Below, piece after piece: positions 14,356 through 34,368 of a stretch of 64,000 nt of DNA; positions within the stretch are counted from its first letter, which is position 1, and every line of letters starts with the position of its first letter. The position numbers and the translations under genes were made by a program. Origin of the DNA: Chromohalobacter sp. 11-W (lineage in GTDB: Bacteria > Pseudomonadota > Gammaproteobacteria > Pseudomonadales > Halomonadaceae); assembly GCF_029889905.1 (NCBI RefSeq), contig NZ_JARANZ010000002.1, positions 186,001 through 250,000 on the forward strand, in the 5' to 3' direction. The notes beneath the pieces were generated by a model. It saw only the letters and a program-made list of their open reading frames with translations, ran no database searches and was not told the DNA's origin.

Positions 14356-15054
14356 TCAGGCTGCGAGCCGCCCTCTGAGACGTGCCACGGCCTGGCTATG
14401 CAATTGGCATACCCGCGATTCGCTGACCCCGAGCACGGCGCCGATTTCCTTGAGGTTGAGTTCTTCCTGGTAATACAGCCCTAGTAGCAGCTTTTCACGT
14501 TCGGGCAATTGCTCGATGGCTTCGACCAGATGCGCCCGCGCATCGCCTTTCAACAAGGCGTCGTGCGGGGTCGCCGGTGCGGTCTCCCCCGCCGGGGGTT
14601 CGCCGAGTTCGGACACGACCTCGTCGAAGCCCAGCAGATAACCATTATTGGCATCCAGCAGCAGCTGATGATATTCGTCGACGCTCATATCCAGGGAGCT
14701 GGCGATTTCGCGCTCGTCCGGGGCACGCCCTAACGACTGCTCGAGCCTGTGCACCGCCTGATCCAACGCCCGTACGCTGCGCCGCACGCTGCGCGGCATC
14801 CAGTCGCGACTGCGCAGTTCATCGATCATCGCGCCGCGCACGCGCTGATTGGCGAAAGTGGAAAAACTCGCCCCTTGGGCGGTATCGAAGCGTTCCAGCG
14901 CGTCGAGTAATCCCACCATGCCAGCTTGAATCAAATCATCGAGTTCGACACTGGCCGGTAAGCGTACTTGCAATGCCAGCGCATGACGCCGTACGAGCGG
15001 CATGTATTGTTCCAGCAGTGCGCGTTGGTCGATTTTGCCCTGTGCCGTATACAT
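14356..15054 (-). CDS. fliA: FliA, flagellar sigma factor 28
   Basis: A 232-residue sigma factor with region 2 (LDDLIQAGMVGLLDALERFD, FSTFANQRVRGAMIDELRSRDW), region 3 (PRSVRRSVRALDQAV) and a region 4 helix-turn-helix (LNLKEIGAVLGVSESRVCQLH). It directs late flagellar and chemotaxis genes through TAAA / GCCGATAA type promoters, one of which I see before motA. A GAGGCG lies 6 bases before the ATG. It is 136 bases after flhE, so it may share that transcript or have its own promoter. I saw no flgM in the window. Confidence 0.95.
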   Translation of the reverse strand: MYTAQGKIDQRALLEQYMPLVRRHALALQVRLPASVELDDLIQAGMVGLLDALERFDTAQGASFSTFANQRVRGAMIDELRSRDWMPRSVRRSVRALDQAVHRLEQSLGRAPDEREIASSLDMSVDEYHQLLLDANNGYLLGFDEVVSELGEPPAGETAPATPHDALLKGDARAHLVEAIEQLPEREKLLLGLYYQEELNLKEIGAVLGVSESRVCQLHSQAVARLRGRLAA

Positions 15055-15190: not shown

Positions 15191-15622
15191 TCAGCGGTAA
15201 TTCACGATCAGTTGCAAGTCTTCGATGCGTACACCCGCGCGCGGGGCGTTCCGCGAGGCGGCACGCCGAAAGCGCAGGACAAAAGGCCCTTGCGCGGAAA
15301 GGCCTTGCAAAGCCCGCGTGCCCCCGCGACGCGTCGCCATTTCGACACAACGACGCGGATGACACAGCCACGCCCGCACATCGCTCGGTCTCTTCGTGAC
15401 GTAACGCCAGGACACCCGCGTGATATGGCCATCGCCGACCGTGTGAGCCTCAGGCGGACGCAGGGGCGCCGTTCGCTCGTCACGCCCCGGCGTCGTCAGT
15501 AGCGGCCCACGCGGCAACGTCACCGCCCAACTGCCGGCCTCGACGGCTTTCGCGAATGGCGCCATGCTCAGCGTGGCGCCTAACGCCGCCCACAAAGCCA
15601 GGACGCAGCCAAGGGACTTCAC
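15191..15622 (-). CDS. flhE: FlhE, periplasmic flagellar protein
   Basis: A 143-residue secreted protein starting at GTG 15622: a short basic N-terminus, hydrophobic core and probable cleavage after AKAVEA near residue 29. The mature domain includes ITRVSWRY, RAWLCHPRRCVEM (probable disulfide pair) and the C-terminus LQLIVNYR, matching the end of enterobacterial FlhE. FlhE acts in the periplasm to limit proton leak or secretion errors in the flagellar export gate. The GTG overlaps the mini-flhG stop by 4 bases. A longer frame from 15859 exists but overlaps mini-flhG and hides the signal peptide. Confidence 0.85.
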   Translation of the reverse strand: MKSLGCVLALWAALGATLSMAPFAKAVEAGSWAVTLPRGPLLTTPGRDERTAPLRPPEAHTVGDGHITRVSWRYVTKRPSDVRAWLCHPRRCVEMATRRGGTRALQGLSAQGPFVLRFRRAASRNAPRAGVRIEDLQLIVNYR

Positions 15623-16056
15623 GACCGACGCTCGCTTGACGGTAGCGTCTGCGCCAGCCACTCGGCGGGGTCGGCGACAAGCTCGACCGCCAGGAAGCGG
15701 CGCGCCGTGTCCACCAAGTTGCCAAGCGGCATATCGCCCGCGCTGGCCGGATCGCGTATCACCAGTAAACGTGGCAGACGTTCGCGCTGCGACCATTGTT
15801 TGAGTTCGCGATAGGCGCGCTGTAAGCCTTCCGCACCGGAGGCAACCCAGATGCCCCAATGCGGCGAAGAACGCTGGGTGGCGGTCACATCACCGACGGC
15901 CAGCGGCAAGGTCTCCCAGGCAAGACCGCTGAGTGACGCAAGGCGTTCGCAGATCGCCGTCACCGCCTGAGGCGACGGATGGCCGATCGTCACCAGCGCC
16001 GCTTTGTCGCGTCGCTGGCTCGCATAGGCGCGCAATCCTGCCGCTTGATCGTTCAT
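15619..16056 (-). CDS. Reduced FlhG-like protein: keeps the DQAxGLR FlhF-activating motif, lacks the ATPase P-loop
   Basis: A 145-residue protein that starts MNDQAAGLRAYASQRR and then reads ALVTIG where FlhG has VIAVTGGKGGVGKT; no P-loop follows. The DQAxxLR motif is, in FlhG/YlxH, the helix that stimulates the FlhF GTPase. The second half (GLQRAYRELKQWSQRERLPRLLVIRD, then RRFLAVEL) resembles the C-terminal half of MinD-fold FlhG proteins, including the RFLgVxL segment. Normal FlhG is about 270-300 residues, so about half is gone. GAGGTG lies 5 bases before the ATG. It lies between flhF (7-base gap) and flhE (4-base overlap). The intact frame and tight coupling argue against a pseudogene. Confidence 0.72.
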   Translation of the reverse strand: MNDQAAGLRAYASQRRDKAALVTIGHPSPQAVTAICERLASLSGLAWETLPLAVGDVTATQRSSPHWGIWVASGAEGLQRAYRELKQWSQRERLPRLLVIRDPASAGDMPLGNLVDTARRFLAVELVADPAEWLAQTLPSSERRS

Positions 16057-16063
16057 CGTCACC

Positions 16064-18265
16064 TCACGCGGCCTGTGACAGCGCCGCATGCGCCGTCAGC
16101 AAGTGCAACAACCCATGCAGCAGGGTATCGGGACTGCGTCGCTTGCGCTCACCGGCAAGACGCCTCACCACCGGGCGCGCATCCACCGCCCAGCCGTCCT
16201 CGCTCAAGTCCATCCGTAGCGCCAAGGCCGCCAATTGCGCTGCAAGATAGACGCGCAGTTCGCAATCCAGAGGTGCCGATGCGCCCAACTGTTGCCACGC
16301 CGTGCGCATCAAACGCGATAGATCATCCTGTTCGAGCTGGCGATAAACGAAGGCGCGCATGTCGATATCCAGCGCGTCGCCCCCATGCCCCAACCAGTGA
16401 TAGACGCCCCGCCGACGCCCGCTCTCGGGGTCGTGACTCATCGCAATCCACAGTTGCAGGGTGTCCGCGTCGGTCTCGGCCAAGGCCACGGGCAAGCGCG
16501 ACAGCGTCACGCGTCGTGCGCGGCCACGCAGGCGACAGGTATGCTGGCCACAGGGCTCGGCGAGATCGACCAGCTCGCCGATCGCCAGACGTTCCCCGGC
16601 ATGCCAGACGCGCTGCTGCACTCGTGTGCGTGCTAGCCAGGGGCTATCCGTCTCGCGCAACTGTTTCCTGACGTCGGCATCGGGTACCCGCGCGAACACA
16701 TGCCAATGACTGCCCAGATGGCGCCGCGCCAGGGTCAGGCGCTGCGTGTCGGACGGCGGCCAACGATGGAGAGGCCAGGCCAGCGGCAAGACATCGCCAT
16801 TGGCGTCCAGTGGGAGCATCGGCGCCGCCCAATCCATTCCTCGCGGCTTCCCACCCGGCCAGAACAGGCCAGTTGCCTCGGCGTCATGCCACGCCTTGAT
16901 CATCGACGGCGGTGCCAGGTGCTCTTCGAGCCAGGCTTGCTGTATGGCACGTGGCGACTCACGACGGTGCCACGCGGCATCAAGCCACGCCACGCCGGGT
17001 ACGCCGCGTTGCAACGTTTCCATCACCCGCGTCAATTGATCGCGCTGTGCCAAGAGATCTCGCGATAGCGCTTGCAGGCCCTGCCCGGAGGCAGTGGGCC
17101 GCAACATCTCGGTGAGTACGCCTTCATCGAAGGTGAACGGAGAGCCCTGCCCCACGGCCAGCGCTTCATCCAATAACGCTGGCGCTTCGGCCAGGCGAAT
17201 GTCTTCGGGCACGCGCTGGCCATGTAAGACGTAATAAAGGCGTAGCCGATGGCGCATCACGACATCCAGCGCGGACCCTAGACGCGGCGCTTCGTCGACC
17301 TTGGTCAACAGGCAACCGTAAAGCGGCGCACCGGCGTCCTGCGAGGCTCGCTGATAGGTCTCGACAACCTCTTCGAGCGTATCGCCGTGGCTGGCCGCGT
17401 TCAGCAGCAAGAGACGGCGTACCGGACGCCCCGCACCGCCGAGGCGCGCGATCTGCCCCGTCACCCGCTGATCGCGCTGACTCATGCCCACGGTGTCGAC
17501 GATCACCATGCGCTTGCCTTCAAGGCGCGATAGCAAGTCTTCGAGATCATCTTCATGGTGCACGGCATGCACATCGACACCCAGCAAGCGGGCATAGATA
17601 CGCAACTGTTCATGCGCACCGATACGATAATCGTCGGTAGTCACCAGGGCGACATCGTCTCCGCCGAAGCGCATCACGTAACGTGCCGCAAACTTGGCGG
17701 TGGTCGTGGTCTTGCCTACACCGGTCGGCCCCACCAGGGCGAACACACCGCCCTCCTCGAGCATCGTCGCCTCGTCATCGAGCACCGCGAGCCGGGTCTC
17801 GAGTTGACGTCGGCTCCAGGCCAGTAAACGCGGGTCATCGGCATCGACATCGGCGAGTTCGTCGGGCAACGTCTCGAGCATTTCGCGCACCAGACGGGCG
17901 CTGAAGCCGGCAGTAATCAAGCGCTGGCGCAAGACGCCGCGCACGCCGGGACTTGCACTGCGCGGGCGTGGTGTCTCGGCGATATGCGACATCAACAATT
18001 CGCGCATGGCCTGCATTTCAGCATACAGGCGATCTTGCCCCGGCGCGGGCGAGGTCTCGACTGAAGGAGCACTAGCCTGCGCGGGCGCGGCGACGTCCTC
18101 TGCCTGCTCAACCAGTGACGACTGGGCCTCTTCGGCCACGGCCACGACCTCGACACCGTCATCCACGCGCCGGTTGGAGAGGATCAGGGCGTCATCCCCC
18201 AACGCGTCTCGTACCTGTCGCATCGCCTCGCGACTATTGGCACCGAGAAACCGCATCACGCTCAT
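16064..18265 (-). CDS. flhF: FlhF, SRP-type GTPase, with a long C-terminal extension
   Basis: A 733-residue protein. Residues 1-45 match the FlhF B-domain start (MRFLGANSREAMRQVRDALGDDALILSNRRV). Then come a variable linker (46-105) and the NG GTPase: P-loop GPTGVGKTTTTAKFAARY (179-196), TTDDYRIGAHEQLRIYA, DTVG (257-260) and TKVDEAP (321-327). The NG domain should end near 375. The remaining ~360 residues have no counterpart in typical FlhF (430-500 residues), and I do not recognise them. FlhF normally fixes flagellar position and number. Overlaps flhA by ATGA. Confidence 0.9.
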   Translation of the reverse strand: MSVMRFLGANSREAMRQVRDALGDDALILSNRRVDDGVEVVAVAEEAQSSLVEQAEDVAAPAQASAPSVETSPAPGQDRLYAEMQAMRELLMSHIAETPRPRSASPGVRGVLRQRLITAGFSARLVREMLETLPDELADVDADDPRLLAWSRRQLETRLAVLDDEATMLEEGGVFALVGPTGVGKTTTTAKFAARYVMRFGGDDVALVTTDDYRIGAHEQLRIYARLLGVDVHAVHHEDDLEDLLSRLEGKRMVIVDTVGMSQRDQRVTGQIARLGGAGRPVRRLLLLNAASHGDTLEEVVETYQRASQDAGAPLYGCLLTKVDEAPRLGSALDVVMRHRLRLYYVLHGQRVPEDIRLAEAPALLDEALAVGQGSPFTFDEGVLTEMLRPTASGQGLQALSRDLLAQRDQLTRVMETLQRGVPGVAWLDAAWHRRESPRAIQQAWLEEHLAPPSMIKAWHDAEATGLFWPGGKPRGMDWAAPMLPLDANGDVLPLAWPLHRWPPSDTQRLTLARRHLGSHWHVFARVPDADVRKQLRETDSPWLARTRVQQRVWHAGERLAIGELVDLAEPCGQHTCRLRGRARRVTLSRLPVALAETDADTLQLWIAMSHDPESGRRRGVYHWLGHGGDALDIDMRAFVYRQLEQDDLSRLMRTAWQQLGASAPLDCELRVYLAAQLAALALRMDLSEDGWAVDARPVVRRLAGERKRRSPDTLLHGLLHLLTAHAALSQAA

Positions 18266-20346
18266 GAACGTGCTCCGACGGTAGCGGTGACACGCAAGGT
18301 GCGGTCATCGGGGATTTCGGCATTGGACATCACCACTAGATGGGTAATGCGGCGGCGTAGGAAGCGGGCCAGCAACGCACGCAGACCGTGCTGGACGACC
18401 AGCACCGTCGGCTCGCCACGCGCTTCCTGACGCTCCACGGCGGCCATCGACTGCTCCATGAGGGTGTCGGCCAGTCCAGGCTCCAGGCCACCGCCATTGC
18501 TCAGCGCCTGAGTGAGAACTTGTTCGAGATTGGCTTCCAAGCCGATGACATGCATCTCCTGGTCCCCTGGGAACCACTGCTGGGTAATCGAGCGTCCCAG
18601 CGCCACACGCACCATGGCGGTCAACTCATGGGGATCGGCTTGCTGTGGCGCATGCTCGGCCAGCGTATCGAGGATGGTACGCATATCGCGAATCGAGACT
18701 TCCTCAGCGAGCAGGTTCTGTAGAATGCGCTGCATCGCGGTCAGGGTCAGCAGCTTGGGCACCACGTCTTCGACCAGCGACTTGTTCTCGGCGGCGATCT
18801 TGTCGAGCAATTGCTGTACTTCCTGGCGCCCCAGCATGTCATTGGCGTGGCGATGCAACAGGTGGTTGAGATGCGTAGCCACCACCGTACTCGCGTCGAC
18901 TACGGTATAGCCGTAGACCTGGGCGCGTTCCCGCTGCGCGGCGTCGATCCATACGGCGGGCAGACCGAAGGCGGGATCCTGGGTCGGCGTACCTTCTACC
19001 TTGCCCGATACCTGCCCCGGGTCGATGGCCAGCCATTGTCCCGGATGCGCATCGGCGCGGCCCACTTCGACGCCCTTGAGTGTAATGATATAGGTCGAAG
19101 GCCCCAATTCGAGATTGTCGCGGATGTGCACCACCGGTGGCAAAAAGCCGACATCCTGGGCGAATTTCTTGCGAACGCTCTTGATACGCCCCAGCAACTC
19201 ACCCTTCTGGCGATGGTCGACGAGTGGTATCAGACGGTGGCCGACCTCGAGGCCCAAGGTATCGACGAGCTGCACATCGTCCCAGCTCGCCTCCGGCACT
19301 TCGGGCTGAGGAGGCGGTGTCTGGGGAGAGGCCTCTTCGGTGACTTGTTGCTGGTTGCGACGCCACATCCACCACGCCAACCCTCCGAGCAACGCGGTAA
19401 ACAGCAAGAAGACCAGGTTGGGCATCCCCGGCACGAGACCCAGCAGCCCCATGACGCCTGCGGCCAGCATCAGGACCTGCGGGTTGTTGAAGAGCTGGCT
19501 GATCAGTTGCTGACCGACATCCTGATCGGTGTTGACGCGCGAGACGGTGACACCCGCCGCAGTCGAGATCACCAGCGCCGGAATCTGTGCCACCAGCCCG
19601 TCGCCGATGGTCAGCAAGGTATAGGTATGGGCAGCTTCGGAAAAGCTCAGGCTATGTTGCGCCATGCCAATCGCCAGACCACCGATCAAATTGATCATCA
19701 TGATGATGATGCCGGCGATGGCATCGCCGCGCACGAACTTGCTGGCCCCGTCCATGGAACCGTAGAAATCGGCTTCCTGAGAGGTTTCCTGACGCCGCGC
19801 CCGCGCTTCGTCCTCACCGATCAAGCCGGCATTGAGGTCGGCGTCGATCGCCATTTGCTTGCCGGGCATGGCATCCAACGTAAAGCGCGCGCCTACCTCG
19901 GCGATACGCCCCGCCCCTTTAGTGATGACCATGAAGTTGATCACCACCAGGATCATGAACACGACCAAACCGACGGCGAAGTTACCCCCGATCAAGAAGG
20001 CACCGAAGGCCTCGATCACTTTGCCAGCCGCATCGCCGCCTTCATGGCCCTCCATCAAGACCACGCGCGTGGAAGCGACGTTCAACGACAACCGCAGTAG
20101 GGTCGAAAACAACAAGACCGCCGGGAAGGCCGCGAAATCGAGCGGCTTCTGCGTGAACATGCTCACCAGCAGCACCATGACGGCCAGGGTGATATTGAAG
20201 GTAAACAGCAGGTCCAGCACAAACGCCGGCAACGGCAGGATCATCATGCTCAGGATCATGATGATCAGCACGGGGCCGGCCAGCACCTTCAAGCGGGTGT
20301 CGTTCAGCCACTCACGACGGCCCCATAACTGACTCAACGCATTCAT
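18262..20346 (-). CDS. flhA: FlhA, flagellar type III export gate protein
   Basis: A 694-residue protein with about eight membrane segments in the first ~320 residues, then a large cytosolic domain. The conserved loop EVGARFTLDAMPGKQMAIDADLNAG (FHIPEP region) is intact. FlhA forms the nonameric ring that docks chaperone-substrate complexes and drives export with proton motive force. ATGA overlaps on both sides (flhB stop, flhF start) indicate a coupled flhB-flhA-flhF unit. Confidence 0.96.
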   Translation of the reverse strand: MNALSQLWGRREWLNDTRLKVLAGPVLIIMILSMMILPLPAFVLDLLFTFNITLAVMVLLVSMFTQKPLDFAAFPAVLLFSTLLRLSLNVASTRVVLMEGHEGGDAAGKVIEAFGAFLIGGNFAVGLVVFMILVVINFMVITKGAGRIAEVGARFTLDAMPGKQMAIDADLNAGLIGEDEARARRQETSQEADFYGSMDGASKFVRGDAIAGIIIMMINLIGGLAIGMAQHSLSFSEAAHTYTLLTIGDGLVAQIPALVISTAAGVTVSRVNTDQDVGQQLISQLFNNPQVLMLAAGVMGLLGLVPGMPNLVFLLFTALLGGLAWWMWRRNQQQVTEEASPQTPPPQPEVPEASWDDVQLVDTLGLEVGHRLIPLVDHRQKGELLGRIKSVRKKFAQDVGFLPPVVHIRDNLELGPSTYIITLKGVEVGRADAHPGQWLAIDPGQVSGKVEGTPTQDPAFGLPAVWIDAAQRERAQVYGYTVVDASTVVATHLNHLLHRHANDMLGRQEVQQLLDKIAAENKSLVEDVVPKLLTLTAMQRILQNLLAEEVSIRDMRTILDTLAEHAPQQADPHELTAMVRVALGRSITQQWFPGDQEMHVIGLEANLEQVLTQALSNGGGLEPGLADTLMEQSMAAVERQEARGEPTVLVVQHGLRALLARFLRRRITHLVVMSNAEIPDDRTLRVTATVGARS

Positions 20347-21512
20347 GGTGTGTCCTTGGCGTCGGCAACGTTTTGCCGAGACGGGTCTAACTCGTCGGGC
20401 ACGGGCAGGTCATATGGCGTTTGCGGCCAGTCACCCCCTTCCTCGCGCACACGTTTCAAGCGGTAGGCCCAAGCCAGCACCTCCGCCACGGCGGTATATA
20501 GATTCGCGGGGACTTCGTGATCGATGTCCACATGCTGATGCAGGGCACGCGCCAACGGCGGCGCTTCCAGCAAGGGCACACCATGCGCTTCGCCCAGCTC
20601 GCGAATGCGCGTGGCGACCATGTCCGAGCCCTTGGCAACGACGCGCGGCGCCTCCATTTGACTCCCCTCGTACATCAGCGCCACGGCATAATGCGTGGGG
20701 TTGGTGACGATGACATCTGCATCCGGCACCTTGGCCATCATCCGCCGCCGTGCCATGGACTGCTGCTGGGCGCGCATGCGGGCCTTCACCTGGGGATCAC
20801 CCTCGGTTTCCTTGTGCTCTTTCTTGATCTCGTCCTTGGTCATGCGCAGCTTCTTGGTAAAGCTCCACAGCTGGAAAGGCACATCGATCAACACCACGAC
20901 GATGAGTGTCGCTACGCAGAAGGCCAGACACAGAGCGGCGAGATTCATGCCTCGCGCCAGCGCTTCGCTCAACGGCAGGCTCATCAAGCCTAGAAGGTCA
21001 CCACGGTGCCACCACAGAAAGATCACGGCGACACCGCCCACCAGCGTCGACTTAGCGATGGCCTTGCCCAATTCCGCTACCGCTTGCGACGAAAACATAC
21101 GCTTCAATCCTTTCAGGGGATTGAGCTTGGACACTTGGGGCTGCAGCGACTTTGCCGTCATTAGCCAGCCACCCAGCATTACCGGTGCTGCCAGCGCGAC
21201 GACCGACACGATAAGGAACAACGGTAACAAGGACATCAGCGTGTTTTTGCCCAACGCCCAGACATGCGACATCAGCACAGCGGTGTCGAAAGCTTCAGCG
21301 CGCGAAAATATGAACGACTGCTCCATGACCCCGCCTAGGCTCTCGTAGAGGTGGCCTCCCAGCGACCATAGCGACATCACGCCTGCCGCCAATAGCATGA
21401 AGGTGGTCAACTCGCGCGAACGCGCAACCTCACCGTCTTCCTTCGCCTTGTCGAGTCGTCGAGGTGTCGGGTCTTCGGTTTTTTCCTCGTCGCTGTCGCT
21501 ACCCTCGGCCAT
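20343..21512 (-). CDS. flhB: FlhB, flagellar export switch protein
   Basis: A 389-residue protein with a charged N-terminus (SDEEKTEDPTPRRLDKAKEDGEVARS), four membrane segments and a cytosolic domain with the self-cleaving motif NPTH (VTNPTHYAVAL). Cleavage between Asn and Pro allows the switch from hook to filament substrates. First gene of the flhB-flhA-flhF-mini-flhG-flhE unit, 200 bases after cheZ and separated from it by a strong terminator. An inverted repeat CCGCATTC-atc-GAATGCGG lies upstream at 21576-21594. Confidence 0.96.
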   Translation of the reverse strand: MAEGSDSDEEKTEDPTPRRLDKAKEDGEVARSRELTTFMLLAAGVMSLWSLGGHLYESLGGVMEQSFIFSRAEAFDTAVLMSHVWALGKNTLMSLLPLFLIVSVVALAAPVMLGGWLMTAKSLQPQVSKLNPLKGLKRMFSSQAVAELGKAIAKSTLVGGVAVIFLWWHRGDLLGLMSLPLSEALARGMNLAALCLAFCVATLIVVVLIDVPFQLWSFTKKLRMTKDEIKKEHKETEGDPQVKARMRAQQQSMARRRMMAKVPDADVIVTNPTHYAVALMYEGSQMEAPRVVAKGSDMVATRIRELGEAHGVPLLEAPPLARALHQHVDIDHEVPANLYTAVAEVLAWAYRLKRVREEGGDWPQTPYDLPVPDELDPSRQNVADAKDTP

Positions 21513-33756: not shown

Positions 33757-34368
33757 CTATCTTGCGACGAGGCGTCGCGCCGTCATCCCATCCGACTCAG
33801 AAGCCGCCACAGACTGACGACGCGGCGTTGCTACCCGTTCTTCGGCCTGACGCTTCTTGCGTGTTTTGCCGGCACGCGAAGGCGGCTGACAAATACCGCA
33901 CACGAAGTCGTGATCGGGACTGTATGCGTGGGCGACGAACCGACCACCGCAACTGGTGCACGGCGAGAGTTGCATCATGCCGCTTTCGAAGAAGCGAATG
34001 AGCGTCCAAGCGCGCGTCAATCCCAGCACCGGCTCCCCTGCTTCGAGGCTGACTTGCTCTAGATAAAGCCTGAAGGCTTTGACGAAAGCCGACATTCGCT
34101 CGCAACCGCAATCTTCGAGCAGACTCGAGTAAATGTTGTAAAACAACGAGGAATGGATGTTAGGCATCCAGGTAATGAACCAGTCGGTCGAAAACGGCAG
34201 CATGCCCTTGGGGGGCGACATCCCGCGCACTTCCTTGTAAAGCTTGATCAAGCGCCCACGACTCAAATCCGTCTCGGTCTCGAGTACCTGCAGGCGCGCC
34301 CCCAGATCGATCAATTCGATGGCGAGCTGCACCTGCAGCATTTCGCCCACTAGACTTTTCTCGCTCAC
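33757..34368 (-). CDS. flhC: FlhC, flagellar master regulator subunit
   Basis: A 203-residue protein close to enteric FlhC throughout: [55 protein letters not shown] four-Cys zinc site is present (CTSCGG and [10 protein letters not shown]). It forms the FlhD4C2 activator of class II flagellar promoters. GTG at 34368 has AGGAG 7 bases upstream and aligns with the enteric start. The flhD stop lies inside this ribosome site. The C-terminal tail is Arg-rich and variable. Confidence 0.95.

Follow-up and report, generated by a model that had tools for sequence, protein, structure and literature searches.

FlhG (YlxH), a MinD-type ATPase, is encoded just after the flagellar GTPase gene flhF. The available parts of a review treat FlhG as an ATPase throughout, state that a glutamine of its N-terminal helix completes the GTPase site of FlhF, and call it the protein analogue of the signal recognition particle RNA that stimulates the Ffh-FtsY GTPases (PMC12826062); as the latter is an RNA, the analogy is one of function only. 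FleN of pseudomonads is also encoded after flhF, but lacks the DQAxxLR motif (PMC12713375). We analyzed a 64,000-bp stretch of Chromohalobacter sp. 11-W (contig NZ_JARANZ010000002.1, positions 186,001 to 250,000; hereafter the window), in which flhF is followed by a gene for a small protein, here called mini-FlhG. This protein shares with canonical FlhG the N-terminal DQAxxLR motif, the site just after flhF and the C-terminal half of the domain, but it lacks the deviant Walker A motif and, as estimated from alignment ranges, approximately 70-75 residues from the first half and 60 from the C-terminus. FleN, whose C-terminal half is likewise homologous, is its mirror image, with the P-loop retained and DQAxxLR missing. 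The relevant features are:

15619..16056, minus strand: mini-FlhG, 145 aa, translation starting MNDQAAGLR
16030..16050, minus strand: enhancer-helix motif DQAAGLR, residues 3-9 (role of the motif according to PMC12826062)
15646..16005, minus strand: P-loop-less alpha/beta core, residues 18-137, of which the larger, C-terminal part shows homology with the C-terminal half of the FlhG domain
16064..18265, minus strand: flhF, 733 aa, with B domain, NG GTPase and C-terminal extension (Pfam/NCBIfam)
16067..17113, minus strand: FlhF residues 385-733, IS4/Tn5-transposase-like domain

Homology of mini-FlhG to FlhG

The translation bore out an initial annotation of this DNA, which had described a 145-residue protein starting with DQAAGLR and devoid of a P-loop; the deviant Walker A motif KGGxGK[ST] is absent as well. 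A profile-profile comparison with FlhG, suggested at the same time, disclosed homology. The core family without the helix matched betaproteobacterial FlhG (96.8%, E 2.7e-10), which in turn matched canonical FlhG (100%, E 2.8e-74), while reversed-core controls scored 0.2-0.3%. With regard to the C-terminal membrane-targeting sequence of FlhG, the matched stretch stops before the last ~80 columns of betaproteobacterial FlhG. When the core family was compared directly with canonical FlhG, the value was 41% (E 2.8e-4). The mini-FlhG profile also matched a true FlhG (G407, E 6.3e-5) among 185 genomes of the class and three FleN sequences in the PDB (E 0.024-0.028), all in the C-terminal half. The profile comparisons, the synteny with flhF and the helix motif support mini-FlhG as a homologue of FlhG without the ATPase motif. 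For the family set A2, the window protein and 61 of the 64 usable loci were taken.

Single-protein scans with Pfam and NCBIfam assigned no family to mini-FlhG, and a PDB search with the single protein gave only three weak, unrelated rows. Scans of 62 members yielded scattered weak Pfam and NCBIfam matches without a coherent family. On the point raised in the initial annotation whether the structure might be unrelated to MinD, the prediction gave a divided answer: the model fits FlhG without pointing to it specifically, and other alpha/beta folds lead the structure-based search. The N-terminal helix was predicted at residues 4-14 with low confidence (pLDDT 52-65). A SulA-like reading of the core was dropped; neither the PDB nor the Pfam results contained such a row.

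A full-length FlhG elsewhere in the 3.66-Mb genome, which would have spoken against a separation of the two FlhG jobs, was looked for and not found. The 11 MinD/CbiA-type matches inspected are, by reading, ParA/Soj, MinD, Mrp, other ParA-like proteins, a Wzc-like kinase, Ffh, ArsA-like, BioD, PyrG and CysNC-like proteins. The best of them reached 93.7 bits on the canonical FlhG profile, whose 91 source FlhGs score at least 329.

The tight packing between flhF and flhE was confirmed: the TGA stop of flhF is followed by 7 nt (GGTGACG) and the ATG of mini-FlhG, whose stop codon overlaps the GTG start of flhE (Pfam PF06366). By reading, the G motifs of FlhF are intact. The gene order is flhB-flhA-flhF-mini-FlhG-flhE-fliA, and an FlhDC-type regulator gene is located in the window, too:

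15191..15622, minus strand: flhE (Pfam PF06366, E 2.4e-21)
14356..15054, minus strand: fliA (Pfam/NCBIfam)
18262..20346, minus strand: flhA (Pfam/NCBIfam)
20343..21512, minus strand: flhB (Pfam/NCBIfam)
33853..34365, minus strand: flhC, FlhDC-type master regulator (Pfam FlhC, E 1e-83)

A search of the genome for FleQ gave a borderline match of 21.8 bits in a 760-aa frame (G000:C34:272143-272484).

Occurrence, selection and betaproteobacterial FlhG

As judged by sequence, the reduced form is not special to the window: several lineages carry mini-FlhG, and a milder loss, that of the P-loop, covers the sampled betaproteobacterial order. Homologues were detected in at least 142 of 250 genomes of the family (single-sequence search, E <= 0.001), a lower bound because genome G015, missed by this search, does have one. 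The nearest named relatives are Chromohalobacter species (77-99% identity in mini-FlhG). A pattern search of named genomes yielded 65 loci in Halomonadaceae, Azotobacter (including Azotobacter vinelandii), Alloalcanivorax, Aliidiomarina, Pseudomonas linyingensis and Stutzerimonas stutzeri. As the pattern demands DQAAGLR, the invariance of the motif among them is by construction. Independently of the pattern, DQA[AS]GLR was present in all 30 family loci found by homology (own genome and one broken frame counted), several of which had matched in the core alone.

None of the 65 named loci contains GxxxxGK[ST] after the helix, which invariably lies within 150 nt of the flhF end. While flhA is found upstream of the pair at 53 loci and fliA downstream of it at 52, 11 loci of Salinicola, Kushneria and one unclassified strain (L058, L059, L061, L066, L067, L068, L076, L077, L079, L102, L114) possess neither gene on the 10-kb stretch; further gaps fall at contig ends. 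Since the flhF-mini-FlhG pair is separate from flhA and fliA in these 11 loci, the two genes move together. The usable proteins (n = 64) comprise 131-241 aa with a linker of varying length after the helix, and frames of at least 110 aa are intact in 64 of the 65 loci. Among five Chromohalobacter orthologues, dN/dS over mini-FlhG was ~0.05-0.09 (dN 0.029-0.143, dS 0.47-1.6). The core, and the FlhF extension too, is under purifying selection. Thus, the initial idea of an FlhG stripped to an FlhF activator held insofar as the protein is an FlhG homologue without the ATPase motif, but not with regard to the extent of the stripping, as about the C-terminal half of the domain remains and is under purifying selection. 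In Salinicola tamaricis F01 (L102/L032), flhF and the mini-FlhG gene are both broken, by sequencing error or by real decay.

KGGxGK[ST] was found in none of 71 FlhGs encoded next to flhF in an order that appears to be betaproteobacterial because the named Cupriavidus metallidurans has the same FlhG type. Fifteen of them contain only a generic GxxxxGK[ST], four another GK[ST] and 52 none, while DQAxxLR is retained in 68. The FlhG of C. metallidurans CH34 (L315, 275-aa frame) resembles mini-FlhG in its retained helix motif (DQAESLR), its eroded Walker A and its place beside an FlhF with a transposase-like domain, but has a full-length domain. In other Gammaproteobacteria, 91 of 94 FlhGs exhibit KGGxGK[ST], the three without it belonging to the own genome and two of the same family; 46 of the 91 lack the helix motif by the search pattern, one of which (G407) has the near-motif DQADGAR. 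The betaproteobacterial sample represents 72 of 85 genomes with a match, whereas the other survey was not random but consisted of the best FlhF matches and 40 chosen regions, two of them in the betaproteobacterial order. Four loci without an FlhG candidate on the stretch (L135, L136, L139 and the betaproteobacterial L289) and second copies of a genome (L147, L219, L220, L236) were left out of the counts. Only the family handles f109 and f220 are common to the betaproteobacterial order and the class sample. The shrunken FlhG of Chromohalobacter and its relatives seems to be the extreme of a broader FlhG decay seen in betaproteobacteria. The fit to non-polar flagellation seen in the initial annotation is a weak argument, since the order with the same P-loop loss includes many polar flagellates.

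Three betaproteobacterial loci (L183, L287, L294) contain FlhG-like genes adjoining flhF with neither Walker A nor DQAxxLR, the latter motif being degenerate in L287 (HQASGLQ); they possibly represent a step towards total loss.

In a tree of 183 FlhF NG domains (FastTree, midpoint root), 17 mini-lineage FlhFs formed one clade (1.0) nested in a clade of betaproteobacterial and mini-lineage sequences (0.995), with a poorly supported betaproteobacterial sister (0.32). This nesting agrees with PMC12826062, where transfer of a betaproteobacterial flagellar cluster is reported for enterics, and with PMC2885672, in which the flagellar genes of the peritrichous, FlhDC-driven A. vinelandii most resemble those of Chromohalobacter salexigens and Cupriavidus necator. 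The latter paper cites Chromohalobacter as peritrichous.

The C-terminal extension of FlhF

Residues 385-733 of FlhF are a putative domesticated IS4/Tn5-type transposase domain without the full catalytic triad. The extension has a homologue in all 65 mini-FlhG loci. A profile of mini-lineage extensions (A3; window and 42 of the 65 loci) matched five betaproteobacterial FlhF extensions, that of C. metallidurans included (hhalign, 98.7%, E 2.3e-16). The link to IS4/Tn5 needs these betaproteobacterial sequences because the direct comparison of A3 with Tn5-like transposases was not significant (0.2% and 1.3%). The extension of G731 matched nine records annotated as transposase among 72,556 plasmid records (tblastn, E 2e-22 to 4e-12), and two free-standing transposases scored 147 and 154.8 bits against the profile of the five extensions. 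These bit scores were obtained in searches against 15 sequences and 1 sequence, and the accompanying E values (6.4e-46, 1.8e-49) are therefore not those of a large library; moreover, the free-standing transposase G1071 had itself been found with the G731 extension. Independent of this choice are the plasmid search and the fold, as the modelled extension agreed with an IS4/Tn5-type transposase in the fold test.

A first strong hhalign result (96.8%) was set aside because the alignment of extensions had included G1071, a real transposase. The comparison gave 10.7% (E 0.003) when G1071 was excluded altogether, 95.4% (E 2e-8) when it was placed with the transposases, and 70% (E 3.9e-5) with the extensions of G731 and G820 alone. 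A Pfam scan of 43 FlhF extensions revealed no transposase model, and A3 against the PDB produced one weak PtmU3 row. The complete DDE triad occurs in none of the five betaproteobacterial extensions, nor was DRE seen in the 16 mini-lineage rows printed. Among 72 betaproteobacterial FlhFs only G731 matches the A3 profile; G820 was added by reading. This second FlhF (L289) is 879 aa long and carries the transposase-like domain; no FlhG was found in the 2 kb downstream of it.

Working model and alternative explanations

Because the helix is kept, the P-loop is gone and no other FlhG was found, mini-FlhG is most simply modelled as an ATP-independent activator of FlhF. The model builds on the homology, the absent P-loop, the helix motif, purifying selection, the search for another FlhG and the FlhDC-type regulator. 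We regard it as likely that a reduced FlhG, descended from a betaproteobacterial-type flagellar cluster whose FlhG had already lost the deviant Walker A, resets FlhF without ATP. The middle and the C-terminus of the protein would then have been trimmed in the lineage now found in Halomonadaceae, Azotobacter, Alloalcanivorax and Aliidiomarina. Translated from the same message as FlhF, mini-FlhG would insert its DQAAGLR helix into the FlhF homodimer in its GTP-bound state, where the glutamine may complete the GTPase site, GTP would be hydrolysed and FlhF would return to monomers. The remainder, a small P-loop-less scaffold, should not run a MinD-like cycle of ATP binding, dimerization and membrane attachment; therefore, FlhF would be reset without an ATP-dependent counting arm. 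GTPase stimulation, loss of ATP binding and loss of the counting role are thus what the sequence leads us to expect of mini-FlhG, and where FlhDC is in control, FlhG would not be needed as an anti-activator of FleQ/FlrA.

In this way the two jobs of FlhG appear to be split by lineage, one large lineage keeping the FlhF-activating helix minus the ATPase motif and pseudomonad FleN the reverse, so that comparing lineages offers a direct test of what each job contributes. Mini- and betaproteobacterial FlhGs supply intermediates between the full FlhF/FlhG system and the enteric loss, and FlhF adds the case of a flagellar GTPase with a putatively domesticated transposase domain. Neither a P-loop-less FlhG nor an FlhF with a transposase domain was found described in the open-licence literature, which does not prove the absence of such descriptions.

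The extension suggests a different division of labor, in which the helix serves FlhF binding and the core mainly docks on the transposase-like domain, mini-FlhG being a co-factor rather than mainly a GTPase activator. Its presence at all 65 mini-FlhG loci and the purifying selection on both core and extension speak for docking. However, the extension-bearing betaproteobacteria G731, G1072, G1036, G880 and C. metallidurans have an untrimmed FlhG without Walker A, and A3 matches few betaproteobacterial FlhFs. Docking seems possible but rather doubtful. As the extension is rare among Walker-A-less betaproteobacteria, loss of the P-loop does not need it. Similarly tentative is a combined scheme, in which FlhG, uncoupled from ATP, persists only as a GTPase-activating helix, while the captured dead transposase of FlhF, as a dimer or DNA-binding surface, took over dimerizing or anchoring, creating an ATP-independent placement switch for FlhDC-driven flagella.

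Two further readings compete with the ATP-independent activator. Mini-FlhG could be a decaying relic heading for the fate of flhF and flhG in those enterics that no longer have them. The erosion series from betaproteobacterial to mini-FlhGs, the lack of both genes in many enterics (PMC12826062) and the genome in which both are broken (L102) are consistent with such decay, yet it is improbable given the low dN/dS over the protein and the nearly complete set of intact frames. Even less credible is an unrelated CheY/flavodoxin-like protein with a DQAxGLR-like start acquired by convergence. Other alpha/beta folds do head the fold search, a response regulator was matched as well when the mini-FlhG profile was run over the class genomes, and a coherent Pfam or NCBIfam match is missing. 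Convergence is nevertheless strongly disfavoured by the match of the helix-free profile to betaproteobacterial FlhG with low reversed controls, and by the position of mini-FlhG beside flhF in 65 of 65 loci.
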